From NCBI GenBank assembly GCA_009619075.1, contig WJOY01000017.1:1-39556 (forward strand): 39,556 bases of DNA. The letters are read 5' to 3'. Numbering within the stretch: position 1 is the stretch's first letter; the number at the start of each line of letters is the position of its first letter. The position numbers and the translations under genes were made by a program. The DNA comes from Dehalococcoidia bacterium (GTDB lineage: Bacteria > Chloroflexota > Dehalococcoidia > GIF9 > AB-539-J10). Under the pieces are notes generated by a model, which did not search any database, was not told the DNA's origin, and saw only the letters and a list, made by a program, of their open reading frames with translations. Shown here piece by piece: positions 16,584 through 38,515 of the stretch.

Positions 16584-16775
16584 GTGCCTTTTAATCCACC
16601 ACAAAGGATGACCTTAATGGCAGGAAACATAAGGGTCTATAAGGCGAAACTGCCGGTATTTCAATTACTTCTCTGTGGATTTATGGCAGGGCTTTACATC
16701 GCTATGGGGGCAGCATTGTGCACTATGTGTGGCACTGGTTTTTTAAAAGGAGCTAATTACCATGGAGGAGTTTGA
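16584..16775 (+). pseudogene. 63-aa stub of a formate/nitrite channel (FNT) N-terminus
   Basis: GTG start at 16584 with an excellent AAAGGAGGT ribosome site 8 bases upstream. The product resembles the first 60 residues of FocA-type channels: a P-P-Q-R-M amphipathic start, then V-Y-K-A-K-L-P and one membrane helix ending in a Thr-Gly pair. The intact FNT at 22424-23641 has the matching stretch V-T-K-A-S with G-L-L-A-G-F-F-I-G-L-G-A. It stops after TM1, where the intact channel needs six helices. Its last codons overlap the start of mvhD2, which carries its own AAGGAG site. It is probably a truncated relic kept for its translation signals, though a small one-helix membrane protein is possible. 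Confidence 0.55.
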
Positions 16776-20719: not shown

Positions 20720-21384
20720 CAATTACGGGCAAATCTGATGCCGGCAAAACATCTCTAATTAAGGGACTTATACCCGAGATGAAAAGGAGAGGATATAAAG
20801 TTGCTGCTGTTAAGAATTGCCCGCATGGCTTTGATTTGGATGTTGAAGGGAAGGATTCATGGCATTTTACTAAGGCTGGGGCTGGGGGTATCCTTCTCCA
20901 GTCCCCATCAGAACTCGGACTCATTCGCACGAAAGGCAATACAGTTGGCAGCTTAAATGAGGTGGTGAAATATTATCTAGCCGACTTCGATCTTGTACTA
21001 GCCGAAGGTTTTGCCCAAGATACCAGCACAAGGAGGATAGAGGTACTCCGTAAGGGGATGAGCCCAGAGCTTGAGTCTCCCCAGGAAAGATTGGTTGCAA
21101 TTGTAACCGATTTTGCCTTCCCTATAGACAAGCCAACCTTTAATCCTACCGAACTTTCCGAGCTTGCAGATTTTATCGAAAAGGTCATGAAGGAGGATAA
21201 AGAAAGTAAGCCTTATGTTGAGCTTAGCATAAATAAAAATCCCGTATACCTAAATGAATTCGCCCAGAGCATGATAAAGGGCACGATTACCGGACTCGTG
21301 GCTTCTTTAAAAAGGGAAGACAAGGAATTAAGGGAAATTGAAATAAGGATCCGCCCTTCTGAGGAGGTAAAAAAAGATGAATAG
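20704..21384 (+). CDS. mobB: Molybdopterin-guanine dinucleotide biosynthesis protein MobB
   Basis: A 226-aa P-loop GTPase: G-K-S-D-A-G-K-T-S at residues 9-17, then A-V-K-N-C-P-H-G-F-D and V-L-A-E-G-F. MobB assists MobA in handing GTP or product to target enzymes. The C-terminal 50 or so residues (from about 170) go beyond the core MobB fold and include N-P-V-Y-L-N-E-F-A-Q, an extension also known in some bacterial MobB proteins. It overlaps mobA upstream by 16 bp and the next membrane gene by 8 bp, so all three are translationally linked. Confidence 0.9.
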   Translation: MPLVIAITGKSDAGKTSLIKGLIPEMKRRGYKVAAVKNCPHGFDLDVEGKDSWHFTKAGAGGILLQSPSELGLIRTKGNTVGSLNEVVKYYLADFDLVLAEGFAQDTSTRRIEVLRKGMSPELESPQERLVAIVTDFAFPIDKPTFNPTELSELADFIEKVMKEDKESKPYVELSINKNPVYLNEFAQSMIKGTITGLVASLKREDKELREIEIRIRPSEEVKKDE

Positions 21385-22027
21385 GTCTTTAAAAACCAAC
21401 ATAAGAGATGCTTTACCTATCATTTTAATTTGTGGAACGGTCTGGGGCTGCGTTGAAGCAGGCCTGGGACTATTGCCTAAGTATCCCTTCTCCTCTGTCC
21501 CGCCAACGTTAATAAGCCTTATGGTTTTGGCTTTAGCTCGAACTTACTTGCCCAAACCTGGCTCATCAACGGCTACCGGTGCCATTGCCATGCTTTATAG
21601 GGCGATGACCGCCCATGGCTGGCCCTGTCACATATGGGCAGTGCTCCTGATCGGGGTTTCCTTCGACGTAGTAGCTACACTGCTAGCCAAAAAGAATGAA
21701 AGGTTAGCCTGGAGGATTGTTAGTGGGCCAGCTACTGCTTACCTAGCCTATGCCCTTTTTGGATTTACTATGACCTATATCATGCTTTATATACCACCTA
21801 TGAAACATTGTGCTCATTGGTGGGTAATAGGAGGATTGCCCAAGATTTTAAATTACATTGGCAAAAGCGGAAGCCTTGCGGCTGTCGGCTCGACAGTTTT
21901 CGTACCTCTGGGGTATTGGTTAGGCTCTTTAGTACCTAGCATAAAGTTACGGCAGCGATGGGCTATGATGGGAGCAGGATTTATTCTTGCTGCTCTCTGG
22001 ATCCTTGGGTTTGTTATCTTCCCTTGA
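21377..22027 (+). CDS. Unrecognised six-helix membrane protein
   Basis: A 216-aa hydrophobic protein with six likely membrane helices, at about 12-33, 39-57, 84-103, 115-138, 163-186 and 195-215. The size and helix number resemble substrate-binding S components of ECF-type transporters, but I cannot assign a family. The overlap with mobB (8 bp) puts it in the molybdenum-cofactor end of the operon, which makes transport of a cofactor-related solute a guess only. Polar residues within helices (H-G-W-P-C-H before helix 3, K-H-C-A-H-W-W after helix 4) could form a binding site. It is the last intact gene of the long plus-strand operon. Confidence 0.75.
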   Translation: MNRSLKTNIRDALPIILICGTVWGCVEAGLGLLPKYPFSSVPPTLISLMVLALARTYLPKPGSSTATGAIAMLYRAMTAHGWPCHIWAVLLIGVSFDVVATLLAKKNERLAWRIVSGPATAYLAYALFGFTMTYIMLYIPPMKHCAHWWVIGGLPKILNYIGKSGSLAAVGSTVFVPLGYWLGSLVPSIKLRQRWAMMGAGFILAALWILGFVIFP

Positions 22028-22102
22028 CTTGCGGTGGCGAATGGTTAAGCTGCTGACTGGAACAAGAAAAGCGGTAAATTAGGAAAAGGCGAAAAATGGC
22101 TT

Positions 22103-22276
22103 GTGCCTACGACGTGTCCCATATTGTGGCTGCGGCTTAAGTGTGGTCGTTGAAGAAGGCATAGCTAAAAACGCCGAGTATATGGAAGAGCATCCAGTTT
22201 CCCAAGGTACTCTCGGCCCAAGAGTAACGCAGCTCTACAGGTAGCCTACCATCCGGATTGCTTACGCTATCCCTTT
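22103..22276 (+). pseudogene. Frameshifted stump of a formate dehydrogenase alpha subunit
   Basis: Reading GTG at 22103 gives V-P-T-T-C-P. One extra base at 22121 then moves the frame to Y-C-G-C-G-L-S-V-V-V-E-E-G, together the [4Fe-4S] motif C-P-Y-C-G-C-G at the start of the molybdopterin domain of formate dehydrogenases (here with Leu in place of the fourth Cys). H-P-V-S-Q-G-T-L-G-P follows, then a second frameshift into V-A-Y-H-P-D-C-L-R-Y-P, the usual next block. Everything after about 22280 is unreadable, and the catalytic domain is gone. It sits between the membrane protein and the FNT gene. Confidence 0.75.
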
Positions 22277-22423: not shown

Positions 22424-23641
22424 CTACCACTTCTCCTGAGATAATCGAGAGCTAAGCCAAGTACGCAAGGGCGCGTCTAACATGCCCACCCTAGACTCCA
22501 GCCAATGCACATCTCCACTAGATAGAGCAGCTTTTGCCTCATCGGTCAAATTATAGCCCTCGAGAGCTTTGTCTGGATTCTCAGACAATTGGGCCAAGAA
22601 AGTGGCGTCATCCCTGGCTTTAGCCAGCACAGATAACAAGGCGGTGGTTTCCACATCGGGAGTCCATACCTTTTGGGGTTGAGCTTCAACGGTAACAAAT
22701 CTTCCAAGCCAGCGCCTGGCGGCAACAACTTCAGCGGCTCGTTCCTTGCGAAGGAACACCAACCAGTAAAGCATGCCCACCGAGCTACCACCGATTACAT
22801 TACCTATAGTCACTGGTATGAGGTTGTGAACAAAACCAAGTGCGGTGACATTAGTTATTTGAGCTGCAGTTACCCCTGCAGCTTGGGCAACCTCAGCTTG
22901 ACCTGCCATAGCCATGCCCATAGGAATGAAGAACATGTTGGCGATGCTGTGTTCAAAACCACAGGCTACAAAGGCAGTTATGGGAAAGACAATGACCAGT
23001 ATCCTACTGGTAACCGAGCGAGCAGCGAAGCATAGCCAAACAGCTAGACACACTAAAACATTACACATTATGCCTCGGTATAATGCTGGCACGAAGGCTA
23101 GATTCACCTTGGCATTGGCAATCATTAGAGCGTTAACTCCGACTCGATAGCTATCAAGTGCCCAGAACTGGGCATAAAAGATTAAGACTACTAAAATCAA
23201 TGCGCCAGCAAGATTGCTAAAGTAAACTATTCCCCAGTTACGCAGCAGTTGAGACCCACTGATTCGGGCACTCATCCACGGAGCAACTATAAGGCAATTG
23301 CCGGTGAATAGCTCCGATCCGGCAACTACCACCAGGATAAGTCCTAGGGAGAAAGCCAGTCCACCTAATAACTTCCCCAATCCAAATCCTAGGCTAATAT
23401 TAGTGGTAACCAAAGTGCAGAACACTGCCCCCAAGCCAATGAAAAATCCTGCCAAGAGGCCCAAAAGCACCATACTAAGGGTATCCCGAGAGGCTTTAGT
23501 TACACCGGTGCTTTCCATCTTGTGAACCATTTCCACTGGCTGATGGGCATCAGGCACTAACTTGTCCAACTTCTCGGCAATAGGTTGCATACCGGGCAAT
23601 TCCGCTACCCGAGGCACACTTGTCAATTTAGTTCGCGCCAT
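22424..23641 (-). CDS. Formate/nitrite-family channel with an added C-terminal LigA-like tail
   Basis: A 405-aa protein. Residues about 50-300 are an FNT channel with six helices: G-S-E-L-F-T-G-N-C at 108-116, and G-F-E-H231-S-I-A-N-M with the pore histidine. FNT proteins are pentameric inner-membrane channels for formate, nitrite or hydrosulfide. The formate context argues for formate. Residues about 332-405 are not part of the family. This soluble tail (F-L-A-Q-L-S-E-N-P, L-T-D-E-A-K-A-A-L-S-S-G-D, ending R-L-S-Q-E-K-W) recalls the small LigA-type helical domain and recurs as the free 94-aa protein encoded just upstream. The ATG at 23641 has an AAAGGAG site. The N-terminal 50 residues are also longer than usual. 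Confidence 0.92.
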   Translation of the reverse strand: MARTKLTSVPRVAELPGMQPIAEKLDKLVPDAHQPVEMVHKMESTGVTKASRDTLSMVLLGLLAGFFIGLGAVFCTLVTTNISLGFGLGKLLGGLAFSLGLILVVVAGSELFTGNCLIVAPWMSARISGSQLLRNWGIVYFSNLAGALILVVLIFYAQFWALDSYRVGVNALMIANAKVNLAFVPALYRGIMCNVLVCLAVWLCFAARSVTSRILVIVFPITAFVACGFEHSIANMFFIPMGMAMAGQAEVAQAAGVTAAQITNVTALGFVHNLIPVTIGNVIGGSSVGMLYWLVFLRKERAAEVVAARRWLGRFVTVEAQPQKVWTPDVETTALLSVLAKARDDATFLAQLSENPDKALEGYNLTDEAKAALSSGDVHWLESRVGMLDAPLRTWLSSRLSQEKW

Positions 23642-23659
23642 CGTGTTAACTCCTTTCGC

Positions 23660-23944
23660 TTACCATTTCTCTTGAGACAGCCGGCACCACAGCCAAGTAG
23701 CTAGCTCTTTATCCAGCTTGCCGACCCAGGCCTCTATTTTCCTGATATCACCACTAGCTAGGGCAGCTCTCTCCTCGGCAGTTAAAGTGTAATACTCTCT
23801 GAGAACCTCGTGAGGATTCTGGGCTAATCGGGCTAAGAATTCCGGCTCATTGGCAGCTCTTTTTAGAACGGCGAGTAGCTCCTCCCTCCCCGATACCACT
23901 TCTCCACTAACCTTTCCTCTGGTTACTTCAACCACTTTAGTCAT
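23660..23944 (-). CDS. 94-aa stand-alone copy of the FNT tail domain (LigA-like)
   Basis: The start is ATG at 23944 with an ideal AAAGGAGGG site. Residues 22-94 align with the last 74 residues of the neighbouring FNT channel at roughly half identity: L-L-x-V-L, F-L-A-x-L-x-x-N-P, L-T-x-E, A-A-L-x-S-G-D, and the identical final seven residues R-L-S-Q-E-K-W. The pattern of a helical domain with x-N-P-x-x-x-L-x-x-Y-x-L-T-x-E-E-x-A-A-L-x-S-G-D resembles the LigA subunit fold and the leader regions of some peptide precursors, but I cannot assign a function. It is first in a two-gene minus-strand operon (18-bp gap). An interaction with the channel tail, or a gating or docking role, is inference. 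Confidence 0.8.
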   Translation of the reverse strand: MTKVVEVTRGKVSGEVVSGREELLAVLKRAANEPEFLARLAQNPHEVLREYYTLTAEERAALASGDIRKIEAWVGKLDKELATWLWCRLSQEKW

Positions 23945-24030
23945 TTTTATCCCTCCTTTCTTTTTATTCCAGAGCGAGTTTAGCAACTGCCCGACCGCCT
24001 GCCATCGTCCATAAGTTGTAATTTGCAATA

Positions 24031-24080
24031 CCCTTTGGTCGCGCCCAAAGGGCCAACTGCCTTGCCCTAAGGGGCAGGCA
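24031..24080. repeat. Two adjacent hairpins in the divergent promoter region
   Basis: Hairpin 1: CCCTTTGG (24031-24038) with CCAAAGGG (24045-24052). Hairpin 2: TGCCTTGCCC (24058-24067) with GGGGCAGGCA (24071-24080), one bulge, TAA loop. They lie between the channel operon (minus) and the two-component genes (plus). They could be regulator sites or mRNA structures. Confidence 0.45.
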
Positions 24081-24091
24081 TGCTTTATAAT
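24062..24091 (+). promoter_or_regulatory. Candidate promoter for the two-component genes
   Basis: A consensus TATAAT at 24086-24091 has a weak TTGCCC -35 box at 24062-24067 (18-bp spacing) that overlaps hairpin 2. Transcription would start near 24098, about a dozen bases before the TTG start of the response regulator. Confidence 0.45.
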
Positions 24092-24110
24092 TACTTAGGC
24101 ATTTGAGAAA

Positions 24111-24794
24111 TTGAGCGCAAGAGATAAATTAAGGATCTTGATTGCCGACGACCATCCGTTGCTGTGTGAAGCTCTGCATCGAGCATTGGATAGTGAGAAG
24201 GATGTGGAGGTTATCGCTGAGGCCAGCGATGGTGAGGAAGCAGTAAAACTTGCCTCAGAGCTAAAACCTGATGTCGTGGTGATGGATATTGTTATGCCCA
24301 AACTCAATGGAATTGAAGCCACTAAAAAGATCAAAGAGATGACTCCCAACGTAGCCATTTTGATCCTCACTGCTTACGATGACGATGAGTACGTATTAGG
24401 GTTGCTTGATGCCGGAGCCGCCGGCTATCTCTTGAAAAGTGCCAGAGGGCATGATTTAGTTAACGCTATTCGGGCTATACAAGCAGGAGAGTCAGTGCTC
24501 CATCCCAGCATCATCGCCAAGTTACTAAAGCGAGCTATGATGGCACCGGTTAAGGAGCAGAAACACCCAGAACTACTGAGTGAGCGAGAATCGGATATAC
24601 TTAAGTTAGTCACCTTGGGGATGAGCAATAAAGAGATAGGGAAAAAACTGTTTCTCAGCGAGCGCACTGTTAAAGCTCACCTGACCAATATTTTCAACAA
24701 ATTAAATGTTGCTTCACGCAGCGAGGCAATAGTCAAGGGATTAAAATGGGGATTAGTTACCTTGGAAGATACCACAGACAAATTCCAAGATTAA
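24111..24794 (+). CDS. NarL/LuxR-type response regulator
   Basis: A 227-aa regulator. The receiver domain (1-125) has the acidic pair D-D-H and phosphoacceptor Asp59 in V-V-M-D-I, plus the T-A-Y and L-K-S switch residues. A LuxR-type helix-turn-helix is at about 158-220, with L-S-E-R-E and S-N-K-E-I-G-K-K-L. The start is TTG at 24111, since no ATG or GTG gives a full receiver; the ribosome site is weak. It overlaps the histidine kinase gene by 49 bp, so the two form a pair. Position between a formate-type channel and the formate dehydrogenase operon suggests control of these genes. That is inference. Confidence 0.9.
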   Translation: MSARDKLRILIADDHPLLCEALHRALDSEKDVEVIAEASDGEEAVKLASELKPDVVVMDIVMPKLNGIEATKKIKEMTPNVAILILTAYDDDEYVLGLLDAGAAGYLLKSARGHDLVNAIRAIQAGESVLHPSIIAKLLKRAMMAPVKEQKHPELLSERESDILKLVTLGMSNKEIGKKLFLSERTVKAHLTNIFNKLNVASRSEAIVKGLKWGLVTLEDTTDKFQD

Positions 24795-26233
24795 GGGGCC
24801 CACACCTCTGGATCATAATTATCCTCTTTGTCGCCTTAACTCTATCCCATTATACCGATCTCCTATCTGAAATACCTATCCTGGGCGACATTTCGCTGCC
24901 TGTAGCTCTCGGTCTTTCACGACACAGTTTGGAGCGGCTTCTTTATTTGCTGCTAGTGCTATATTCCAACTGGGCACTGGGGATAATCGGTGGTGGGGCA
25001 CTATGGCTTTCAAGCAGTGTGGCAATGTTACTTCACCCCTTCCTCATTCCCTCCCATTTTAGAGCTGCATTGCTAGAAAGTTTCGCCTGCCTCGTCATCA
25101 GTGCTCTAATTATCATGCTTATACAAACCCGCCATGAATATAAGCAGCGACAGGAGATGCTAGAAAAGGCCGTGGAGGATCTGGAATTGTCGCGGCGAAA
25201 CTATGAAGAGTTATTCACCAACACCAGCGACGCTGTTTGGGTTCACGATATGGAGAGCAATATCACTTTAGCTAATAAAGCCTGTGAAAAACTCACCGGC
25301 TATCCTGTTCCAGAATTGATCGGCAAAAATGTCTCCCAGTTTCTTGCCCCAGAGGCGCTAGCTTTGTTTAGACAGGCAAAAGAAAGGCTACTGAGAGGCG
25401 AAGCTATGGAACAGCGCTATGAGCAGCAATTAAATAGGAAAGATGGCTCTAAAGCAATCATACACTTAGCTACGCGGCTTATAGTTAGCGACGGCAAGCC
25501 TCAAGCTTTTCAGAACATAGCTCGAGATATAACTGAGGAGAGAAAGTTGCAGGATAATCTGCGATTTTACCTCAGGGAATGTCTCAGGGCTCAGGAAGAA
25601 GAACGTAAGCGCCTAGCCTGTGAGCTCCATGACGATACTTCACAGCTAGTATTGCTACTATCTCATCACATAGATAACATTGCCTCTGAAGCCAGCAATT
25701 ATTTACCCCAGAAGCTAAGAAATGAGTTTGAGAAGTTATATGAACTGTCTCAGCAAGCCTATGAGGGCATCAAGCGCTATGCTCAAGCTTTAAGGCCCCG
25801 CATTCTGGATGACTTAGGTTTGGTGCCAGCTCTGGAGTGGCTAGCTCAGGAAATAACCAAGCTTGCAGGAATCAAAGTTCAGGTTAAAACAGATACCGTG
25901 CCCCCACTACCTCCAGAAACACAGCTGGTTTTGTTCCGTATCGCTCAAGAAGCCCTAAATAATATTCACAGACACTCTGAGGCATCTGAAGCCAACATTA
26001 TGTTGGAGTACCAGGAAGATGCGGTCAAGATGACCATTAGTGATAATGGCAAGGGCTTTGAGCTTCCCCGGTGGCTAAGCGATTTTGCCGCTCAAGGTAA
26101 ACTAGGACTTACTGGCATGGCAGAACGAATTCAACTGGTAGGCGGGGAAATTGAAATCACTTCTCAAATAGGAAAGGGAACTAAAATAATAGTTAAAGCA
26201 CCGACAAAGCTTTATAATGAGAGCAATAGTTAG
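24746..26233 (+). CDS. PAS-domain sensor histidine kinase (HisKA_3 type)
   Basis: A 495-aa membrane sensor. Helices are at about 21-37, 63-100 (two or more) and 108-127. There is a short coiled coil at 128-150 and a PAS domain at about 152-265. The HisKA_3 helix has His295 in E-L-H-D-D-T-S-Q, and the ATPase domain has E-A-L-N-N-I-x-R-H-S and D-N-G-K-G-F, ending G-K-G-T-K-I. These are the hallmarks of NarX/LiaS-class kinases that partner LuxR-type regulators, as here. There is little periplasmic sequence, so sensing probably occurs in the membrane or through the cytoplasmic PAS domain. ATG at 24746 with AAGGGA upstream. It converges with the fdhA gene. Confidence 0.92.
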   Translation: MGISYLGRYHRQIPRLRGPHLWIIIILFVALTLSHYTDLLSEIPILGDISLPVALGLSRHSLERLLYLLLVLYSNWALGIIGGGALWLSSSVAMLLHPFLIPSHFRAALLESFACLVISALIIMLIQTRHEYKQRQEMLEKAVEDLELSRRNYEELFTNTSDAVWVHDMESNITLANKACEKLTGYPVPELIGKNVSQFLAPEALALFRQAKERLLRGEAMEQRYEQQLNRKDGSKAIIHLATRLIVSDGKPQAFQNIARDITEERKLQDNLRFYLRECLRAQEEERKRLACELHDDTSQLVLLLSHHIDNIASEASNYLPQKLRNEFEKLYELSQQAYEGIKRYAQALRPRILDDLGLVPALEWLAQEITKLAGIKVQVKTDTVPPLPPETQLVLFRIAQEALNNIHRHSEASEANIMLEYQEDAVKMTISDNGKGFELPRWLSDFAAQGKLGLTGMAERIQLVGGEIEITSQIGKGTKIIVKAPTKLYNESNS

Positions 26234-26289: not shown

Positions 26290-28962
26290 TCATAGTTTCT
26301 CCACTCTAACTGCTGCGACTTTGAGTTCAGGAATTTTGGATATCGGGTCTAGTTTGGGGTTGGTGAGGATATTGGCAGGGCTTTCAACGAAATGGAAGGT
26401 CATAAACACCACTCCAGGGGGCGATGCCTCAGTTATCTTGGCTTTAACGCGGATTTCACCGCGCCGAGAACTGACTCTAACTTTATCACCCTGAGCTATG
26501 GCAAGTTGTGAAGCATCCTCAGGGCTGATTTCCACAGTACCCTCGGGTTCTATAATATTAAGTCCGGCTACCTTACGAGTCATCGTCCCGGTATGAAAGT
26601 GATATAAGCTGCGCCCTGTGGTGAGAATCAAAGGATAGTCTTCGTCTGGCGACTCTCCTGGGGGAACATATTTTAGCGGGATAAATCTGCCTTTCCCCCT
26701 AACAAAAGTATTCACATGGAGTATTGGTGTACCTGGATGGTCATCGCTAGGGCAAGGCCATTGGAGTCCCCCACTCTCTAAACGCTGGTAACTTATGCCA
26801 CCATAGCTGGGAGTGAGATAGCGAATTTCCTCCATTATGTCAAACGGGTGGCTATAATCAAAGCCTCCAGCCTCTAACCTTTTGGCTATCTGGCAAATAA
26901 TCCACCAATCAGGATGGGAATCGCCAATTGGCTCAATAGCCTTCCTTACCCGCTGCACTCGCCGCTCAGTATTAGTGAAGGTGCCATCCTTCTCAGCAAA
27001 GCTCACTGCAGGCAAGACAACATGGGCAAATTTTGCTGTTTCGGAAAGGAAAATGTCCTGAACCACAAGAAACTCAAGTTTAGCTAGCGTCTCCCGAACA
27101 TGCCCAACATCAGGATCGCTTAATGCCGGGTTCTCACCAATGAGGTATAGCGCCTTTATCTCTTTCCGGTAGGCGGCTTCAAGCATCTCAACCAAGGTTA
27201 GCCCTGGAGATGAGGGTAATGAGCACCCCCAGGCAATTTCAAATTTCTCTCTGATAGCTGGACTGGCTACTGCCTGGTAACCAGGATAGACATTGGGCAG
27301 GGCACCCATATCGCAAGCACCTTGCACATTGTTCTGACCCCTGAGTGGATTGACCCCGGTTGAGGGCTTGCCTACATTCCCGGTGAGCATTGCCAGGTTG
27401 GCAGTAGCCATCACATTATCAGTGCCATGGGAATGCTGGGTGATACCCATGGCATAGAGGATGGTGGCTGGACTATTGGTGGCAAACATACGGGCTGCTT
27501 GAGCTATTTTGTCACGTGGCACTCCCGTGATGGGCTCAACAAAATCGAGATCAAAATCATTTAATGCCTGCTTGAAGGCATCAAGGTTTTCACATCTCTC
27601 CTCGATAAAGGCTGCGTCAAGCAGCCCCTCGTCCACTATAACCCGCATCATGCCCATAAGTAAGGCAACATCTGTGCCAGGGTTATGCCGTAGCCAGAGG
27701 CTGGCAAAGCGGCAAAGGTCGATCTCACGGGGGTTAGCTACAATGAGCTTTGCCCCTTTATCTACTGCTCTTTTCACCTCAAGCCCGATCACGGGGTGGT
27801 CTTCTGTGGTGTTGGTGCCGATAGCTAAAATGCAAGCGGCGTTACCAACCTCGTTGATGGAATTAGTCATAGCCCCGCTGCCAAAGCTTTGGACAAGGCC
27901 AGCTACAGTAGGAGCGTGACACAGTCGGGCACAGTGATCAACATTATTAGTACCCAATACCGCTCGGGCAAATTTTTGCATGACATAGTTCTCCTCGTTG
28001 GTGCACTTGGCCGATGCAATCACTCCTATCTCGTCTGCTTTATAGCCTTTCAATTTCCTAGCCACCAGATCTAGTGCCTCATCCCAGGATGCCTCTTTCA
28101 ACTCCCCATTCCTTCTTATTAGGGGAGAAGTTAAACGCTGGGGATGTTGGACGAATTCTGCGATACCGAAACGCCCTTTGACACATACTTGGCCATGATT
28201 AACTGTACCATCTGGAGCCGGAATGGAACTTATTATCCTCTCATCCTTGACCTCGAGCTTGAGTTGGCAGCCAACTCCACAATATGGGCAAGTAGTAACT
28301 ACTTCACGGTCAGGCAAGCCCTCCCACTTATTAGCTCTTTCCATCAGGGCTCCGGTAGGACAAGCATCAATACAAGCTCCACAGAATTCACAGCTTACTT
28401 CCTGAAGTGGCTGATTGAAAGCGGTGCCTATCAAAGTTTCACTCCCTCGATAGGTAAAGGAGATGGCTCCCACCTTACGTACCTCTTGACACACGCGGGC
28501 GCAGCGACCACAAAGAATGCACAAGTTATAATCTCGGTCGAAGAATGGGTTTTCCCTGTTAACGGGGAGCTCCTTATAAGTATAAGGGAGAGTTACTTTC
28601 TCCAGTCCGATATAGCGAGCAACCCTCTGTAATTCACAGTTTAGATTTTTGGGGCAGGTGAGGCAGGAATATGGATGCTCGCTTAAAATCAGCTCCATTA
28701 TGTTACGGCGAAGCTCTTGCAATTTTGGGGTATTGGTATGGACTACCAATCCTTCAGTCGCTGGGGTAGTGCATGCTGGGGGAAAACCGCGCATCCCCTC
28801 GATGTCCACAATGCACAGGCGGCAAGCACCAAAGGGAATTAGGTCTGGATAGTAGCAAAGCGTAGGAATATAGATGCCAGCTTCCAGGGCTGCCTCCAAA
28901 ATTGTAGCCTCCCTTTTCGCTTTTACTTCCTTCCCGTCAATAATCAAAGTAACAGTATCCAT
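26290..28962 (-). CDS. fdhA: Formate dehydrogenase alpha subunit, NuoG-like N-terminus (Cys form)
   Basis: An 890-aa molybdopterin enzyme that oxidises formate or reduces CO2. N-terminal [2Fe-2S] ferredoxin with C36, C47, C50, C64. His-Cys [4Fe-4S] region H-P-Y-S-C-L-T-C-P-K-N-L-N-C. Two [4Fe-4S] clusters C-I-L-C-G-R-C-A-R-V-C and C-E-F-C-G-A-C-I-D-A-C. The molybdopterin domain starts C-P-Y-C-G-V-G-C near 226. The metal ligand position is Cys (H-C-A-R-L-C-H-A-P, a TGT codon), not selenocysteine. A dinucleotide-binding C-terminal domain is present. The N-terminal array matches soluble NAD-linked formate dehydrogenases. ATG at 28962, 22 bp after the nuoF-type gene; last gene of the operon. Confidence 0.95.
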   Translation of the reverse strand: MDTVTLIIDGKEVKAKREATILEAALEAGIYIPTLCYYPDLIPFGACRLCIVDIEGMRGFPPACTTPATEGLVVHTNTPKLQELRRNIMELILSEHPYSCLTCPKNLNCELQRVARYIGLEKVTLPYTYKELPVNRENPFFDRDYNLCILCGRCARVCQEVRKVGAISFTYRGSETLIGTAFNQPLQEVSCEFCGACIDACPTGALMERANKWEGLPDREVVTTCPYCGVGCQLKLEVKDERIISSIPAPDGTVNHGQVCVKGRFGIAEFVQHPQRLTSPLIRRNGELKEASWDEALDLVARKLKGYKADEIGVIASAKCTNEENYVMQKFARAVLGTNNVDHCARLCHAPTVAGLVQSFGSGAMTNSINEVGNAACILAIGTNTTEDHPVIGLEVKRAVDKGAKLIVANPREIDLCRFASLWLRHNPGTDVALLMGMMRVIVDEGLLDAAFIEERCENLDAFKQALNDFDLDFVEPITGVPRDKIAQAARMFATNSPATILYAMGITQHSHGTDNVMATANLAMLTGNVGKPSTGVNPLRGQNNVQGACDMGALPNVYPGYQAVASPAIREKFEIAWGCSLPSSPGLTLVEMLEAAYRKEIKALYLIGENPALSDPDVGHVRETLAKLEFLVVQDIFLSETAKFAHVVLPAVSFAEKDGTFTNTERRVQRVRKAIEPIGDSHPDWWIICQIAKRLEAGGFDYSHPFDIMEEIRYLTPSYGGISYQRLESGGLQWPCPSDDHPGTPILHVNTFVRGKGRFIPLKYVPPGESPDEDYPLILTTGRSLYHFHTGTMTRKVAGLNIIEPEGTVEISPEDASQLAIAQGDKVRVSSRRGEIRVKAKITEASPPGVVFMTFHFVESPANILTNPKLDPISKIPELKVAAVRVEKL

Positions 28963-28984
28963 GCTTACTCTCTCTTAATCAAAT

Positions 28985-31900
28985 TTACTCCCGCTCCTCC
29001 AAGTCGCATCTCAAGCACCGCGTTGCCTCCTCAATGGCTAGTTCCTCACTAAGGCTAAGTTCCACCTCAGCAAAACTACCAAGTCGCTCACCTAAAGGCA
29101 GAGTAGGTATTGGGAGACGATGCTTCTCCCCCTCGTCAATTTCAGGCAGCGCCTCTAGCTCTTCAGGTGGCGCCAGCTTTTCGTCTATCACTCCCTTGCC
29201 ACCTAAATATTTATCAATCGAGATTGCTGCCTGCCTTCCAGCAGCGATGGCCTCGATGACTGTGGCTGGTCCAGTCACGGCATCGCCGCCAGCAAAGACA
29301 CCCTCCCTACCTGTAGCTAAAGTATAAGTGTCAACCTGGAACGTATTCCCCCTTCCCAAGGGGAGCCCGAATTGGTCTGGAGTCTCTGGCATCTGACCGA
29401 TAGCAGCAATCACAGTATTAAAGCTCGAGCTGAATTCACTGTCCTCGATTGGCACTGGGCGTCGTCTACCACTGGTATCCACCGCCCCCAGCTTCATGCG
29501 AATGCATATAAGCTCCACCACACTGTCTTTGCTCTCTATTCTAATCGGGGCAGCAAGGAACTCTATCTTCACCCCTTCATGTATTGCCTCATTTATTTCT
29601 TCCTCGCTTGCTGGCATCTCAGTCCTAGTGCGGCGATAGATAATGGTTACCTCCTTGGCACCAAGTCGAAGTGCGTTGCGGGAAGCATCTATGGCGACAT
29701 TGCCCCCGCCGATGATTGCTATTCTGTTCCCTACCCTAACTTTATTCCCCATATTTATCTCTCTGAGAAAGGATATACCTTCCATAACCTCAGGACTATC
29801 CTCTCCTTCAATCCTTAGCTTAGCCCCTTGGTGAGCGCCAATGGCAAGGAAAATGGCGTTATAACCATCGGCAAAAAGCCCGTCTAAGGAGTTGATTTTT
29901 GCATTTGTCCTTATGTCAACTCCAACACTCTTTATCTCCTCAATTTCCTCAGTTAATACCTCTCGGGGCAAGCGATACTCGGGAATGCCATAACGCATCA
30001 TGCCACCTGGCTCAAGGAGCGCCTCAAACACAGTAACGGTATGTCCTCGCTTCGCCAGGTAATAGGCTGCAGTAAGTCCTGCTGGCCCGGAGCCAATGAT
30101 GGCAACTTGCTTTCCTGTAGCTGGAGCTATTTTTGCCCTCATTTTCCAGAGCCCATTGCCCCTCTCGGCGGCAAAGCGCTTGAGCACCCTTATAGCAATA
30201 GAGTCATCTAATAGTCCTCGCCGACATTTGGCTTCACAGGGATGGGGACAGACACGCCCACAAACTGAGGGGAAGGGTATTTTCTCTCGAATTACCGCCA
30301 ACGCTTGGTCAAACTGCCCCTGACTAATGAAGCGAATATAGCGAGGTACATCCACACCAGCGAGACAGGTATGGCTGCAAGGTGCCTTGACCAGCCCCTT
30401 ACAGACCGCAGCAGGACATTTCTTTCTTTTGATATGGGCTTCATATTCATCACGGAAGTAGCGGATGGTACTCAACACTGGATTGGGTGCTGTTCCCCCT
30501 AAGGCGCAGAGCGAGCCATCCCTGACTGTTTCAGCAAGTTGCTGTAATTTATCAATGTCTCCGTCTTGCCCCTCTCCACGAGTTATGCGTTCCAAGATAT
30601 CGAGCATCTGTCTTGTGCCCACTCGACAGGGGGCACACTTTCCACAGGATTCGGCTTGAACAAAGGTGAGGAAGAATTTGGCAAAATCAACTATGCAAGT
30701 ATCTTCGTCAGCCACGATCATGCCACCTGAGCCCATAATGGAGCCCGCTTGGGTCAAAGCTTCATAATCTACAGGTAGGTCTAAGAGCTCAGCGGGAAGG
30801 CAGCCTCCAGAAGGACCACCAGTCTGCACCGCCCTAAACTGCTTATCGTCAGCAATGCCACCTCCAATATCATAGACGATCTCACGAAGGGTGATGCCTA
30901 AGGGAACTTCAATGAGTCCGGTGCGCTTTATCTTTCCCGCCAAAGCAAAAGTCTTTGTTCCTTTGCTCCCCTCTGTTCCATATTGGGCATACCAATCTGC
31001 GCTTTTTTGCAAAATCGCCGCCACAGCGGCAAGGGTTTCTACATTATTGATATTGGTTGGTTTGCCCCAGATGCCTGATTGAGCGGGGAAGGGAGGACGG
31101 GGGCGGGGCATACCCCGTTTACCCTCAATAGAAGCCATCAATGCTGTTTCTTCGCCGCAGACGAAAGCTCCTGCTCCCTCTTTGATTTCTATGTCGAAAT
31201 TGAAGCCTGAACCAAGGATGCTTTCCCCCAGAAGCCCATATTCCTTCATCTTAGCAAGGGCAATATTCAATCGTTCTAGAGCCAGTGGGTATTCGGCGCG
31301 GCAATAGATATAGCCATGTGTTGCCCCTATAGTGTAGGCAGCAATAAGCATTCCCTCCAGAACAGCATGTGGGTCTCCTTCCAAGACGGATCGATTCATA
31401 AAGGCCCCAGGGTCTCCTTCATCGGCATTGCAAACGAGGTATTTTTCCCTGCCGGGAGATTTACGGCAGAAATCCCACTTGAGCCATGTAGGGAAGCCAG
31501 CACCACCTCGCCCTCTGAGCCCTGACTTTTTAATCTCCCCTATAATTTCCTCCGGGCTCATTTTAAGTACCCGGGCAAATCCGCTATAGCCACCACGGGC
31601 AATATAGTGATTAATATTTTCGGGATCAATAGTTCCACAATTTCTCAGAATGATACGAACCTGCGGTTTGAGCATGGGCAAGTCAAAGAATCTGGGAATA
31701 CCCTCAATGCTACCATCACCTATAGTGCCTAAGGCGAGGTCTGGGCGAGGATTATCTTTAATCAGATAATCCTCGACGAGCTCGGGCACAATTTCAGGGG
31801 TGATATTGCCATAGCAAATGCGGGGTCGCCTTGGCTTGATGATATCAACTAAAGGCTCAAGATAACATAGCCCGACACATCCCACCTGTATCACAATAGC

Positions 31901-32065
31901 ATCGATACTGCGCTTGGCTAATTCATCATTAATAGTTTGGAGCACATTTAACGCGCCCGCTGAGCGACCACAGGTGGCAGCACCAACGAGGATGCGGGGC
32001 TTTTCACTGTGCTCTAAGGCTTCCCATTCCGATTTTGCTCGACTTTGAATCTGGTCAAAAATCAT
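28985..32065 (-). CDS. NuoF-like flavoprotein fused to a GltD-type NAD(P)H:FAD module
   Basis: A 1026-aa protein. Residues 1-110 are a thioredoxin-like [2Fe-2S] domain (A-T-C-G-R and V-G-C-V-G-L-C). Residues about 125-540 are NuoF/HydB: the FMN motif G-R-G-G-A-G-F-P-T, and [4Fe-4S] ligands C-G-K-C-A-P-C. From about 565 onward it is GltD-like, with C-S-H-T-C, C-G-R-V-C-P-H-P-C-E-A-K-C, FAD motif G-S-G-P-A-G, and I-I-G-G-G-N-V-A with Y-R-R-T-R-T-E-M-P. The GltD module replaces the ferredoxin tail found in HydB-type proteins. The enzyme thus has two nucleotide-linked flavins (NADH at FMN, NAD(P)H at FAD). ATG at 32065, 15 bp after the nuoE-like stop. It supplies the pyridine-nucleotide end of the formate dehydrogenase. 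Confidence 0.92.
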   Translation of the reverse strand: MIFDQIQSRAKSEWEALEHSEKPRILVGAATCGRSAGALNVLQTINDELAKRSIDAIVIQVGCVGLCYLEPLVDIIKPRRPRICYGNITPEIVPELVEDYLIKDNPRPDLALGTIGDGSIEGIPRFFDLPMLKPQVRIILRNCGTIDPENINHYIARGGYSGFARVLKMSPEEIIGEIKKSGLRGRGGAGFPTWLKWDFCRKSPGREKYLVCNADEGDPGAFMNRSVLEGDPHAVLEGMLIAAYTIGATHGYIYCRAEYPLALERLNIALAKMKEYGLLGESILGSGFNFDIEIKEGAGAFVCGEETALMASIEGKRGMPRPRPPFPAQSGIWGKPTNINNVETLAAVAAILQKSADWYAQYGTEGSKGTKTFALAGKIKRTGLIEVPLGITLREIVYDIGGGIADDKQFRAVQTGGPSGGCLPAELLDLPVDYEALTQAGSIMGSGGMIVADEDTCIVDFAKFFLTFVQAESCGKCAPCRVGTRQMLDILERITRGEGQDGDIDKLQQLAETVRDGSLCALGGTAPNPVLSTIRYFRDEYEAHIKRKKCPAAVCKGLVKAPCSHTCLAGVDVPRYIRFISQGQFDQALAVIREKIPFPSVCGRVCPHPCEAKCRRGLLDDSIAIRVLKRFAAERGNGLWKMRAKIAPATGKQVAIIGSGPAGLTAAYYLAKRGHTVTVFEALLEPGGMMRYGIPEYRLPREVLTEEIEEIKSVGVDIRTNAKINSLDGLFADGYNAIFLAIGAHQGAKLRIEGEDSPEVMEGISFLREINMGNKVRVGNRIAIIGGGNVAIDASRNALRLGAKEVTIIYRRTRTEMPASEEEINEAIHEGVKIEFLAAPIRIESKDSVVELICIRMKLGAVDTSGRRRPVPIEDSEFSSSFNTVIAAIGQMPETPDQFGLPLGRGNTFQVDTYTLATGREGVFAGGDAVTGPATVIEAIAAGRQAAISIDKYLGGKGVIDEKLAPPEELEALPEIDEGEKHRLPIPTLPLGERLGSFAEVELSLSEELAIEEATRCLRCDLEERE

Positions 32066-32079
32066 CTCAGCTTCCGAAG

Positions 32080-32529
32080 CTAATGATAAGAGGACAGAAC
32101 TTGCTTTGCCTTTATCGGGGTCATCCTACTATAAACTGTCTTATCCACCACCATCACTGGGGATAAAGCACAGCAACCAAAACAGGCAACCCTCTCCAGA
32201 CTAAATTTATAGTCCTCCGTAGTCTCTCCCGGCTTGATGCCAAGTTTTCTTTGCACCGTTTCCATAATGCGCGCTCCAGCCCGCACATAACAGGAAGTGC
32301 CAAGACACACCTTAACAGTATATTCACCAGAACGGGTAAAGCGAAACTGAGCATAGAAAGTAGCCACACCGAAAATCTCACTCTTTGAGAGGCCTAGAAA
32401 GCGGGCGATTTCGGATACCGCTTCCTCCGGGAGATAGCTCAGTTCTTCCTGAACTTTTTGCAAGATAGGAATTAAGGTTCCTCGCTTCTCTCTATATGGC
32501 GCTAATATCTCAGCCAGTTTATCGCTGAT
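32080..32529 (-). CDS. NuoE-like [2Fe-2S] subunit, non-canonical start
   Basis: A thioredoxin-like [2Fe-2S] subunit with ligands C-L-G-T-S-C and C-F-G-C-C. It shuttles electrons with the NuoF-like partner. The first standard start codon in frame is TTG at 32463, which would begin inside the conserved P-I-L-Q-K-V-Q-E-E-L helix. The reading frame stays open to a stop at 32548-32550, and the extra residues (S-D-K-L-A-E-I-L-A-P-Y-R-E-K-R-G-T-L-I-P) are clearly the NuoE N-terminus. A GGAGG site (32534-32538) precedes ATC codons at 32532 and 32529. I therefore annotate from ATC at 32529 (149 aa), with CTG at 32517 as an alternative. A well-formed promoter lies about 40 bp upstream. Confidence 0.8.
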   Translation of the reverse strand: MSDKLAEILAPYREKRGTLIPILQKVQEELSYLPEEAVSEIARFLGLSKSEIFGVATFYAQFRFTRSGEYTVKVCLGTSCYVRAGARIMETVQRKLGIKPGETTEDYKFSLERVACFGCCALSPVMVVDKTVYSRMTPIKAKQVLSSYH

Positions 32530-34076: not shown

Positions 34077-34601
34077 GTGACCGTGATAGCATTTTTAGCA
34101 ACTGCGTTTGGGACTTTTTTACTATACCTACTCTTGACCACCGCATCTGGCCCTTTGTTTCTCTGGAGTAAAGAAGAACTAATTATTGGGGCTATTTTCG
34201 CTCTAATAGTAGCAGCAATAGTAAGGAAGATATTCCCAGCGGAAAACCTTCGCTTGCTAAACCCGAAGAGATGGTTTCTACTCCTTGCCTATATTATATG
34301 GCCATTCTTTCCAGCGATGGCAAAGGCAAATATTGATGTTGCCTACCGAGTAATAACAGGAAGGATAAACCCAGGCATTGTGAAGATTTCCCCAAAGCTA
34401 AAGACTGACGCTGGTTTAACCATGCTTGCCAACTCCATAACCCTAACTCCAGGCACTTTGAGCGTGGATGTAGATGAAGAAACAAATGACCTGTATGTCC
34501 ATTGGATAAATGTGAAGGAAGAGGCCTTAGAAAAAATGCCCAGAGATTACAAATACATATGTGGTGAATTCCCTGATTGGGCAAGGAGAGTGATGGAATA
34601 A
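34077..34601 (+). CDS. mnhE: MnhE/MbhA-type antiporter subunit
   Basis: A 174-aa MnhE-family protein, first in the membrane complex. It has three N-terminal helices (about 5-22, 32-50, 66-85) and a cytoplasmic C-terminal domain with N-S-I-T-L-T-P-G-T-L-S-V-D, the family signature. In Mrp antiporters and Mbh complexes the MnhE/F/G group forms part of the sodium-translocating module. The start is GTG at 34077 (or 34083); no ATG is available. The stop overlaps the next ATG by one base. The gene order that follows (F, G, D, E, B, C, D', I, J, K, L) is that of archaeal Mbh-type operons. Confidence 0.9.
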   Translation: MTVIAFLATAFGTFLLYLLLTTASGPLFLWSKEELIIGAIFALIVAAIVRKIFPAENLRLLNPKRWFLLLAYIIWPFFPAMAKANIDVAYRVITGRINPGIVKISPKLKTDAGLTMLANSITLTPGTLSVDVDEETNDLYVHWINVKEEALEKMPRDYKYICGEFPDWARRVME

Positions 34602-34852
34602 TGTGGCTTCCCGTAGCCATATTCCTTGCAGTTTGCGCCACTATAATTCTTATAAGGCTGTTCTTAGGCCCTACCCCACCAGACCGACTAGTAGGATTGG
34701 ATACCTTAAACACCGTAGTTGTAGTGTCCATGGTTATCCTGGGGGCGGCATTTGAAGAGCTAATATATGTTGATGTGGCTATTGTCTATGCCTTGCTTTC
34801 CTTTGTCAGCACCCTTTTCATAGCCAAGTATATTGAGAAAGGCAAATTCTAA
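34601..34852 (+). CDS. mnhF: MnhF/MbhB-type antiporter subunit
   Basis: An 83-aa MnhF protein of three helices with the conserved G-P-T-x-x-D-R between helix 1 and 2 and L-D-T-L-N-T-V following. The ATG at 34601 overlaps the mnhE stop (TAATG) and overlaps mnhG at 34852 by one base; upstream in-frame codons belong to the mnhE region. It is a small membrane subunit of the Na+/H+-antiporter-like module. Confidence 0.9.
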   Translation: MWLPVAIFLAVCATIILIRLFLGPTPPDRLVGLDTLNTVVVVSMVILGAAFEELIYVDVAIVYALLSFVSTLFIAKYIEKGKF

Positions 34853-35211
34853 TGATACTAGATATAATCACCTACATATGTATAGGCATCGGATGCTTGC
34901 TTAACTTGCTGGCGGCGATCGGCCTGCACCGTTTCCCTGATGTTTATACCAGGCTACACGCCGGAACGAAGTGCACTACCTTCGGCTCCATACTTTTAAT
35001 TGCGGCTGTTGTTATACAATCTGTAAGTGTTTGGGTAGCGGAGGGTCTTTCCTCTCCCCAATCAGTACTTACCCTACATGCAGTTATTGCTTTGGTAGTT
35101 ATTTTGCTGACCAATCCTACCAGTGCTCATGCCATCGGTAGGGCAGCACATAGGAGCGGGATCAAACCAGCGAGAGCGGTGGTGGATGACCTGGAGAAAG
35201 AAAAACCATGA
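34852..35211 (+). CDS. mnhG: MnhG/MbhC-type antiporter subunit
   Basis: A 119-aa MnhG protein with three helices and the family signature G-L-x-R-F-P-D-V-Y-T-R-L-H-A-G-T-K. The conserved L-T-N-P-T-S-A-H-A-I-G-R-A-A segment closes helix 3. The ATG overlaps the mnhF stop, and the stop overlaps the next start (ATGA). It is the third of the small E-F-G set that supports ion translocation. Confidence 0.92.
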   Translation: MILDIITYICIGIGCLLNLLAAIGLHRFPDVYTRLHAGTKCTTFGSILLIAAVVIQSVSVWVAEGLSSPQSVLTLHAVIALVVILLTNPTSAHAIGRAAHRSGIKPARAVVDDLEKEKP

Positions 35212-35450
35212 TTGAGCTAGGAGTTCTACACATAATTATCCCTATTTTGATTGTAGTGTGTGCCTTGTTAGTAGCTATATTCAAAGACCTCATCGCTGCT
35301 GTAATAAGTTTAGCTGCTATGAGCCTGCTCTTAGCCCTAGAGTTTTACTTACTTCAAGCCCCTGATGTGGCTATTGCCGAGGCTGGGGTAGGAGCAACTA
35401 TCACCGTAGCGATTTATATCCTGGCCATAAGGGCAACAAGGCGTGAATAG
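35208..35450 (+). CDS. mbhD: MbhD-like small membrane subunit (DUF4040 type)
   Basis: An 80-aa protein with three helices. The core L-L-A-L-E-F-Y-L-L-Q-A-P-D-V-A-I-A-E-A matches the C-terminal fragment of MnhA-type subunits that stands alone as MbhD in membrane-bound hydrogenases. The acidic residue in D-V-A-I-A-E is thought to lie on the ion path in the family. ATG overlap with mnhG upstream. Its stop overlaps the alternative start of the following gene. Confidence 0.85.
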   Translation: MIELGVLHIIIPILIVVCALLVAIFKDLIAAVISLAAMSLLLALEFYLLQAPDVAIAEAGVGATITVAIYILAIRATRRE

Positions 35451-35457
35451 GAGGAAC

Positions 35458-35730
35458 ATGAGAAAAATTGCTATCGCAGTATCCTTGAGCATCTTTATCG
35501 CCTTCTTAATCGCAACAGCATTCCTCATTCACCCCTTTGGCTATCCTCCATCTGAAATGGATGACTACATAATAGAAAATACCCAGAGTGAAACTGGAGC
35601 CAATAATGCCGTAACTGCCGTTGTCTTTGATTACAGAGGCTTTGATACTTTAGGAGAGGCTACTATTTTGTTTACCGCAGTGACCGGCGTGGTAATGCTA
35701 TTTAGAGCCAAGAAGAAAAGGGAGAAATAA
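35458..35730 (+). CDS. mbhE: MbhE-like small membrane subunit
   Basis: A 90-aa protein (ATG at 35458; GTG at 35443 also in frame). It has one N-terminal helix, an extracytoplasmic stretch of about 35 residues with N-N-A-V-T-A-V-V-F-D-Y-R-G-F-D-T-L-G-E, then a second helix. The V-F-D-Y-R-x-x-D-T-L-G-E block is the signature of MbhE and of the corresponding part of MnhA C-termini. A GGAGG lies very close before the ATG (spacing 3), which leaves the start uncertain. Confidence 0.85.
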   Translation: MRKIAIAVSLSIFIAFLIATAFLIHPFGYPPSEMDDYIIENTQSETGANNAVTAVVFDYRGFDTLGEATILFTAVTGVVMLFRAKKKREK

Positions 35731-35734
35731 AACC

Positions 35735-36196
35735 ATGATGTCTAAAATTGTGCGTACTATGGCCAGCCTCTTAATCCTTTTTGCCCTTATCTATGGCTTA
35801 TACATCATCATGCATGGTCACTTGACCCCCGGCGGTGGGTTTCAGGGAGGTGCTGTAGTTGCCTCAGGCGTAGCCTTGCTCATTGTTGCTTTTGGCTCCG
35901 ATAACATTCACAAAAGCCTAAAGGAACACCATCTCTCTATCTTAGAAAGTAGTGGAGCACTAATATTCATCGGCTTAGCCTTTGGCGGTCTAGCCATCGT
36001 ATTCTTCTATAATTTCCTTGTTGGCTCCTCCATTTTCGGTCACATCCCTCCCTCTGGCCCTAACACTGGAGATATATGGACTGCCGGGGTAATTCCTTTT
36101 ATGAACATAGCAGTAGGCTTAAAAGTCCTGGCCGGCTTGTCTGCCATCCTTCTGGTCATGGCTTTAGCCACCACCGTAATGGAGGTGGAAGAATGA
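35735..36196 (+). CDS. mnhB: MnhB/MbhF-type antiporter subunit
   Basis: A 153-aa MnhB-family protein with four helices. The signature H-G-H-L-T-P-G-G-G-F-Q-G-G-A-V is at about 27-41. Start ATG at 35735 (a second ATG follows at once). The stop overlaps mnhC by four bases (ATGA), so the two are translated together. It belongs to the sodium-translocating arm. Confidence 0.93.
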   Translation: MMSKIVRTMASLLILFALIYGLYIIMHGHLTPGGGFQGGAVVASGVALLIVAFGSDNIHKSLKEHHLSILESSGALIFIGLAFGGLAIVFFYNFLVGSSIFGHIPPSGPNTGDIWTAGVIPFMNIAVGLKVLAGLSAILLVMALATTVMEVEE

Positions 36197-36549
36197 CACA
36201 AGGCACTCCTTTTAATGTTCCCTTTTTAGCAGTAGCGGCATTAATAGGCATTGCCTTTTATATCATCCTATCCCAGAGAAATCTGATAAAGCTGGTAATG
36301 GGGCTCAGTATCCTGGCATCTGGCGTTAACCTATTCTTGATCACTTTGGGGTATAGGGAAGGTGGGGTGGCTCCCATTTACACCCACGCTCCCGCAGGGG
36401 TTATGGTATTGCCTGTCCCCCAAGCTTTGACTCTCACCAGCATCGTTATTGCCGTAGCATGTTTGGCTTTGATGCTTTCCATGGTAATACACATTTATCG
36501 CCACACCGGAAGTACAGATTCAGAAAAATCTAGAATAATGAAAGGGTAA
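36193..36549 (+). CDS. mnhC: MnhC/MbhG-type subunit (NuoK-like)
   Basis: A 118-aa protein with three helices, homologous to NuoK/MnhC: N-L-I-K-L-V-M-G-L-S-I-L and P-Q-A-L-T-L-T-S-I-V-I, the latter the usual antiporter-lipid interface motif. The start is ATG at 36193, overlapping mnhB; an open frame upstream of it is not coding. Its stop (36547-36549) is followed in the same frame by the next gene. Confidence 0.92.
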   Translation: MTQGTPFNVPFLAVAALIGIAFYIILSQRNLIKLVMGLSILASGVNLFLITLGYREGGVAPIYTHAPAGVMVLPVPQALTLTSIVIAVACLALMLSMVIHIYRHTGSTDSEKSRIMKG

Positions 36550-36555
36550 AGTAAA

Positions 36556-38121: not shown

Positions 38122-38466
38122 ATGTCAATTTTAGGACTTAGTTATTCTCCTTGGAGCCCAATCTTTTGGCTCCTTGCCTCTGTAGTTGTGATGATAATGG
38201 CCTACTTTTTTAGGAGGCGAGGACAGAAAAAATATAAGAAAGATACCGAGCAAACAAAGATCTTCTTATGCGGTGAAGAGGTGCCTGAGGCAAAGCAGCG
38301 ACATATAAGAGCCCACAATGTATACTGGGGGTTTTTTGAGACTATGAAAGAATACTATGACGCGAATATAAAAGCGCATACGGGAATAATAAATGATTAT
38401 ATAATCTGGTTCCTAGTTCTTATAGCTATAAGCGCCATAATACTCTTTATCGTGGGGATAGTTTAA
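38122..38466 (+). CDS. mbhI: MbhI-like small membrane subunit
   Basis: A 114-aa protein with one helix at about 13-30, a charged central stretch (Y-K-K-D-T-E-Q and C-G-E-E-V-P-E) and a C-terminal helix at about 92-112. Position between the large antiporter-like subunit and the NuoB-like subunit equals MbhI, which links the ion-pumping and hydrogenase arms. Family identity rests on size, topology and synteny. The ATG immediately follows the mnhD stop, with GGAGG at the end of that gene as ribosome site. Confidence 0.75.
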   Translation: MSILGLSYSPWSPIFWLLASVVVMIMAYFFRRRGQKKYKKDTEQTKIFLCGEEVPEAKQRHIRAHNVYWGFFETMKEYYDANIKAHTGIINDYIIWFLVLIAISAIILFIVGIV

Positions 38467-38474
38467 ATAAGAAT

Positions 38475-38502
38475 GTTATTGCGAGCGAAGCGAAGCAATC
38501 TC
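38475..38502 (+). repeat. Dispersed GCGAAGC repeat, best copy
   Basis: Contains ATTGC and GCAAT arms around GAGCGAAGCGAA, followed by CTC. Similar dispersed sequences are common between genes of environmental bacteria. Two degenerate copies are at 22289-22310 and 26245-26264. It sits within the operon, just before the mbhJ ribosome site, where it could fold in the mRNA. Confidence 0.6.
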
Positions 38503-38515
38503 AACTGGAGTGCAT

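Follow-up and report, generated by a model that had tools for sequence, protein, structure and literature searches.

A helical domain shared by a formate channel and a free paralogue in Dehalococcoidia: a putative plug-and-socket module for formate handling

Introduction

Channels of the FNT family are usually regarded as bare pores. The best known of them, FocA, interacts with the cytosolic enzymes PflB and TdcE. Both termini of FocA are cytoplasmic, and only five residues follow its Y-L-R motif (PMC5572259). A survey of the family and a study of the FocA C-terminus describe termini that are short or variable only (PMC5525234, PMC5572259), and no description of an FNT channel with an added C-terminal domain was found in the open-access literature.

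Small helical domains that serve as docking units are known from the borosins. Here, a leader with a LigA-like fold docks onto an enzyme, either as a separate protein (in the split SonA/SonM systems, SonA is the leader partner in the SonM-SonA complex) or fused to it, as in OphMA; in both, the leader is the substrate of a methyltransferase. A related small protein of the NHLP clan, Os1348 of Pseudomonas sp. Os17, lies within a RiPP-like cluster together with modifying enzymes. It has six helices, and in the crystal it forms a dimer via helices 1, 4, 5 and 6 (PMC7726476). A transporter C-terminus may also carry a signal: helix 8b, at the C-terminus of the carboxylate transporter DctA, signals to the PAS kinase DcuS (PMC8307970).

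The locus described here has something in common with all of these. It was met in a stretch of 39,556 nucleotides ("the window"; contig WJOY01000017.1 of assembly GCA_009619075.1) from a bacterium of the class Dehalococcoidia, phylum Chloroflexota. In it, an FNT channel carries a C-terminal helical domain that its neighbour in the operon consists of. The comparison points to a module of the plug-and-socket type, previously unreported, that handles formate in Chloroflexota and whose job is putative.

The channel and its free counterpart

The two genes lie on the minus strand, the gene for the free protein upstream, with 18 bp between them and a purine-rich ribosome-binding site at each:

22424..23641, minus strand: FNT formate channel with C-terminal helical domain, 405 aa (PF01226, predicted fold, pore-position histidine)
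22655..22714, minus strand: flexible linker from helix six to the tail, residues about 310-329 (pLDDT below 50 at residues 310-327)
22427..22648, minus strand: tail domain of the channel, residues about 332-405, six predicted helices, C-terminal RLSQEKW (profile, BLASTP, model)
23660..23944, minus strand: the domain as a free 94-aa protein of the Os1348 family (NHLP clan), encoded by the first gene of the operon (NF038399 43.7 bits, six-helix model)

Judged by its sequence, the larger protein is an FNT channel. It matches PF01226 over residues 37-294 with 245.5 bits (curated cut-off 34.6), its predicted fold resembles that of E. coli FocA (9g49, TMt 0.93), and H231 in GFEHSIANMF occupies the position of the FocA pore histidine. 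It scores 250.3 against the FocA equivalog TIGR04060, where the curated cut-off is 290.1; it is not a FocA equivalog by that measure, and its specificity for formate is putative. Unlike FocA, it has a longer N-terminus and a 74-residue domain on a linker. In the model, a FocA-like channel is followed by a low-confidence linker at residues 310-327 and then, at 330-404, by the same six helices that are predicted for the free protein. Because both termini of FocA are cytoplasmic (PMC5572259), it follows by analogy that the tail would lie on the cytosolic side. Such a tail is an exception, as an earlier note on this DNA, made from the letters alone, had assumed in stating that FNT channels normally stop soon after helix six: in 14 of 15 untailed comparison FNTs, 0-30 residues follow the aligned part of the channel; in the fifteenth, 67 do.

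The same note had aligned tail and neighbour at about half identity, with a common ending. This is borne out. In BLASTP, 39 of 72 residues are identical (54%, one gap, E 3e-21), the alignment score of 181 compares with a best of 53 in 2000 composition shuffles (z = 32), and both proteins end in RLSQEKW. The codon-aligned DNA, conversely, is only 59% identical, with different codons at 22 of the 39 identical residues. The pair is therefore neither an artefact of assembly nor the outcome of a recent duplication, the latter being ruled out also by the three old subfamilies described below. No third copy of the domain is present in the source assembly, which is 68% complete.

Relation to known domains

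The free protein belongs to the Os1348/NHLP clan, whose helical fold is like that of RiPP leaders and akin to LigA-type domains. It matches NF038399, the NCBIfam model for the Os1348 family of the NHLP clan, with 43.7 bits against a cut-off of 40. The tail of the channel stays under that cut-off (30.5 bits within the full protein, 34.6 alone), although its homology to the free copy, as judged from their alignment, is secure. Pfam gives a weak match of the domain to PF14407, the match of the tail to TIGR03793 is very weak, and a Pfam scan at E up to 1 gave none to LigA (PF07746).

A profile of 18 copies, compared with the PDB, found 6lk7 (E 0.004) and the LigA-type leader SonA (E 0.01). The former, an 85-residue entry named "nitrile hydratase, alpha chain," we take to be the crystal structure of Os1348; the profile alignment to it leaves out the last helix of the domain. 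For the free protein, a six-helix model was obtained (mean pLDDT 69.6; the structure models were built on shallow alignments of 6 and 13 sequences). In Foldseek it resembles SonA and part of DesB, with weak E-values of which the best is 0.16, and Os1348 is not among the 50 fold matches listed. Thus, of the resemblance to LigA-type domains and peptide leaders proposed in the earlier note, the part concerning fold and clan stands, through the weak profile and fold matches in the PDB, while membership in the LigA family itself is not borne out by PF07746.

Like Os1348, the free copy is a small six-helix protein of the NHLP clan. Unlike Os1348, the domain has a conserved RLSQEKW end, occurs also as a tail on FNT and, as shown below, on FdhA, and has no recognised modifying enzyme near it in the window. 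It shares with the borosin leaders the occurrence of a LigA-like fold in free and fused form; here, however, free and fused copies belong to one operon of carboxylate metabolism.

Distribution and evolution of the domain

The domain was sought in 60 relatives, 393 genomes of the class Dehalococcoidia and 400 genomes of the phylum, and the loci found were then read. All of these genomes are drafts, many of them incomplete, and the whole-genome profile searches lie within the Chloroflexota.

The tail is not peculiar to the window: the earlier note would have taken its absence from all other genomes as a refutation, and 14 further tailed FNT proteins were found. The total is 15 proteins in 14 genomes of the class (G000, G011, G023, G033, G041, G042, G047, G052, which has two, G169, G210, whose copy has a degenerate end, G336, G369, G392 and G409). 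In G023 (L079), a TAG codon stands at the E of EKW, and the FNT tail ends in RLSQ.

In 11 other genomes (G020, G022, G028, G058, G128, G164, G180, G191, G234, G254 and G264), the tail is carried instead by FdhA, the catalytic subunit of formate dehydrogenase, at the equivalent position in the operon; G396 has a frameshifted FdhA in addition. Here the tail begins immediately past the normal end of FdhA (...DPVAKIPEFKVSAVNAVLAVLDRA...). In L137, L138 and L139, an in-frame TGA breaks the tailed FdhA in two directly after NNIDHCARL, at the expected active-site residue; this TGA is a probable selenocysteine codon.

A free copy is present at every tailed locus whose contig extends far enough to show it. 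Free copies without an adjoining tailed partner occur in G393 and G403, beside acetyl-CoA synthetase (Acs) and an acetate permease.

Outside the class, the 400 phylum genomes gave only generic NHLP domains, below 50 bits and mostly ending short of the last helix. One phylum relative has four weak NHLP-type matches within about 11 kb (G452:C20:19463-30854), three of them in open frames of 901-1387 aa. A contig scan with short peptide patterns found the tail on two Chloroflexota records only, L035 and L036, the first of which matches G033 in its gene layout and in its sequence ends. Absence of the tail beyond the Chloroflexota is weakly tested, because the scan there used short peptide patterns only; viral contigs and plasmids gave nothing.

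In a tree of the domain, the FdhA tails form one group (96/90) and the FNT tails another (92/36), and the free copies, except that of G260, lie across a supported branch (97/93). These are three old groups that have been kept separately. The tailed FdhA proteins are likewise one clade (SH-aLRT 99), outside which the FdhA of the window falls, and the tailed FNTs are all on one side of a weakly supported branch (62/83). The tail is as conserved as the channel that bears it (mean pairwise identity of 64.7% for the FNT tails against 60.4% for the channel), and RL.QEKW is nearly invariant across free copies, FNT tails and FdhA tails. A mirror-tree comparison (partial Mantel test) of tails with free copies gave no sign of coevolution once common descent was allowed for (partial r 0.15, p 0.22; -0.02 when the channel served as control).

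Gene order

Upstream of the free gene, the window contains the following:

23945..24110, no strand assigned: divergent promoter region common to FNT-tail and FdhA-tail loci (GCCATCG..., CTTGCCC...GGCA, TATAAT; alignment of 8 loci)
24111..24794, plus strand: LuxR/NarL-type response regulator (PF00072, PF00196)
24746..26233, plus strand: PAS-HisKA_3-HATPase histidine kinase (PF13426, PF07730, PF02518)
26290..28962, minus strand: untailed FdhA-type molybdopterin oxidoreductase, the catalytic subunit of formate dehydrogenase (PF00384, PF01568, PF04879)
28985..32065, minus strand: NuoF-like flavoprotein fused to a GltD-like domain (PF01512, PF10589, PF07992)
32080..32463, minus strand: NuoE-like [2Fe-2S] subunit (PF01257)

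Pfam matches thus confirm the two-component pair (24111-26233) and the formate dehydrogenase (26290-32463) that had been proposed as neighbours of the channel. In the usual layout across genomes, the free protein heads an operon, and the genes for a response regulator and a PAS kinase run divergently from it. This operon comes in four versions:

(a) free protein, then tailed FNT
(b) free protein, then NuoE, NuoF and tailed FdhA
(c) free protein and tailed FNT with, in varying combination, a cyclic-nucleotide-binding protein, acetyl-CoA synthetase and a YaaH-type acetate permease
(d) free copy ahead of acetyl-CoA synthetase and permease, with no tail (G393 and G403)

Names such as NuoE or HdrA were given to genes at related loci by BLAST against labelled proteins of the window or of other loci, and part of them was checked against Pfam.

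The two-component pair stands opposite the free gene at most loci, in the FNT, FdhA and Acs contexts, and even a short kinase of 353 aa retains the PAS-HisKA_3 core. The promoter blocks are the same ahead of FNT-tail and FdhA-tail operons. Within one genus (g9), two genomes have the FNT version (G033, G392) and two the FdhA version (G022, G028), with the same regulator pair and free gene; a MetF-like gene adjoins the locus in G392 and in G022. The two versions look like the same locus. In G260, FdhA is untailed, and a separate gene right downstream encodes a tail-type protein of 110 aa.

Some further features were seen in passing. A 63-aa ORF between HdrA-like and MvhD-like genes (window 16584-16775, plus strand) resembles the first FNT helix (PF01226 E 1.2e-5, below cut-off) and has a similar piece in G002; it may be what is left of another FNT, or else a small membrane peptide. 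A 216-aa apparent membrane protein without Pfam match (21377-22027, plus strand) lies beside MobA and MobB. Between it and the FNT gene, an open stretch (22092-22241, plus strand; VPYCGCGLSVVVEEG...) resembles the Fe4S4 domain of molybdopterin oxidoreductases (PF04879, 19 bits, under cut-off) and is a probable gene remnant. At 34077-39478 (plus strand), genes like those for Mrp-type antiporter subunits are followed by NuoB- and NuoC-like genes, of which the NuoB-like one alone was checked. Elsewhere, at L152:6256-8673, an acetyl-CoA synthetase with an N-terminal response-regulator receiver domain (PF00072, 91.8 bits) is encoded downstream of a diverged free copy.

Discussion

The reading that we favour, and that we would believe about as readily as doubt, is that the tail is a homotypic docking or regulatory domain whose paralogous partner is the free protein. 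The tail would be a small, all-helical NHLP/LigA-like domain, tethered by the flexible linker to each channel subunit at the cytosolic face, where a free copy would pair with it; in species with the FdhA variant, the free copy would pair with the FdhA tail instead. The pair would act as a regulatory or assembly subunit that regulates or positions the channel or FdhA, and so might tie the uptake or oxidation of formate (in some species, acetate) to the state of the cell. FocA, of course, also meets a cytosolic partner; for the window channel, the proposed partner is the free protein.

Several observations support this. The tail and free protein are homologous and encoded together, three subfamilies have been maintained for long, FNT and FdhA replace one another as partners at equivalent loci, a split, non-fused version exists, and the promoter and the two-component neighbour are common to the loci. 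The free protein is the constant partner across tailed loci. That free copy and tail pair physically is suggested by their fold, paralogy, co-encoding, the alternation between fused and split forms, the conservation of the last helix and the dimer that Os1348 forms in its crystal; that the pairing changes the activity or placement of channel or enzyme is a further inference. Counting against docking are the missing coevolution signal, the free copies in G393 and G403 that have no tailed neighbour, the weak fold match in the PDB and the last helix left unaligned to Os1348.

The main rival is that tail and free protein form a relay, reporting the activity of transport or enzyme to the neighbouring PAS kinase, as helix 8b of DctA does to DcuS (PMC8307970). 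We regard this as unlikely. In its favour, the pair of regulator and PAS kinase accompanies the free gene at most loci, whether the context is FNT, FdhA or Acs, and the PAS-HisKA_3 core is retained. In G008, the kinase is interrupted by stops, the match to the regulator is truncated, the end of the free copy is altered and no tailed partner was found, as if all had decayed jointly. In G020, however, all that is left of the two-component pair is fragments of the kinase, flanked by the free gene and an untailed FdhA (L065:9400-10100), yet the free and FdhA-tail genes are intact, which argues for docking rather than a relay; nor does G260 (64% complete) show a close regulator, the best match being 42%. 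Adjacency, moreover, may reflect transcriptional control only. The likeness to DctA-DcuS, a transporter C-terminus beside a PAS kinase system for carboxylates, also has its bounds: DctA uses a single helix and has no free paralogue, and any such interaction in the window system is putative. The domain might conversely be an inert stabilising or dimerising one, aiding folding or oligomer stability, with the free copy functionally unlinked. This would explain both the lack of coevolution and the free copies without tailed partners; it sits poorly with a free copy at every sufficiently complete tailed locus and with a C-terminal motif conserved in all three subfamilies, and we consider it quite improbable.

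Slightly less probable still is that the tail recruits formate dehydrogenase, or Acs, to the channel for hand-over of substrate at the membrane. Formate dehydrogenase genes do lie near the tailed FNT in G000, G033, G023 and G392, and Acs, acetate permease or both in G041, G042, G047 and G336. The FdhA near a tailed FNT, however, is untailed, and a search of 19 genomes with the Pfam FNT model, including all 11 with an FdhA tail, found FNT in G028 and G403 only, untailed in both. A direct bridge between channel and dehydrogenase is disfavoured because, among the 11 genomes with an FdhA tail, an FNT gene is seen in G028 but in none of the other 10 (62-100% complete); probably, the tail does not join the two directly. 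Finally, the free protein could be the leader-type precursor of a ribosomally made modified peptide, as its NF038399 clan membership, the weak PF14407 match and the very weak TIGR03793 match of the tail might suggest. The nearly invariant RL.QEKW leaves no variable C-terminal core, a channel and an enzyme carry the domain as a fusion, and the neighbours that could be identified in the window and at related loci, where part of the unlabelled ORFs was scanned, include no recognised maturation enzyme. The conserved C-terminus and the lack of a recognised maturation enzyme rule against a modified-peptide system, which the earlier note had entertained; a peptide natural product is unlikely, and a precursor of this kind most improbable.

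The docking or gating idea of that note survives, and is stronger because the same tail is found on FdhA in other species; its simplest form, a tag that recruits an enzyme to the channel, is weakened by the same genomes. A broader version of the docking reading is possible but rather doubtful: that a leader-peptide-type fold has become a general plug-and-socket control module for the metabolism of C1 and C2 acids, in which each operon supplies a single free socket that, under a dedicated two-component system, switches or positions an exchangeable tagged partner, be it the formate channel or the formate dehydrogenase.

A conserved cytosolic domain on an FNT channel, together with its free paralogue, offers a way to study how formate flux can be gated or sensed. 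It is unusual for one tag to be swapped at equivalent loci from a channel to an enzyme or back, and this makes the function of the tag directly testable by assays of binding and flux. If the docking reading is true, a fold known from the leaders of peptide natural products would be working in the central energy metabolism of uncultured Chloroflexota.
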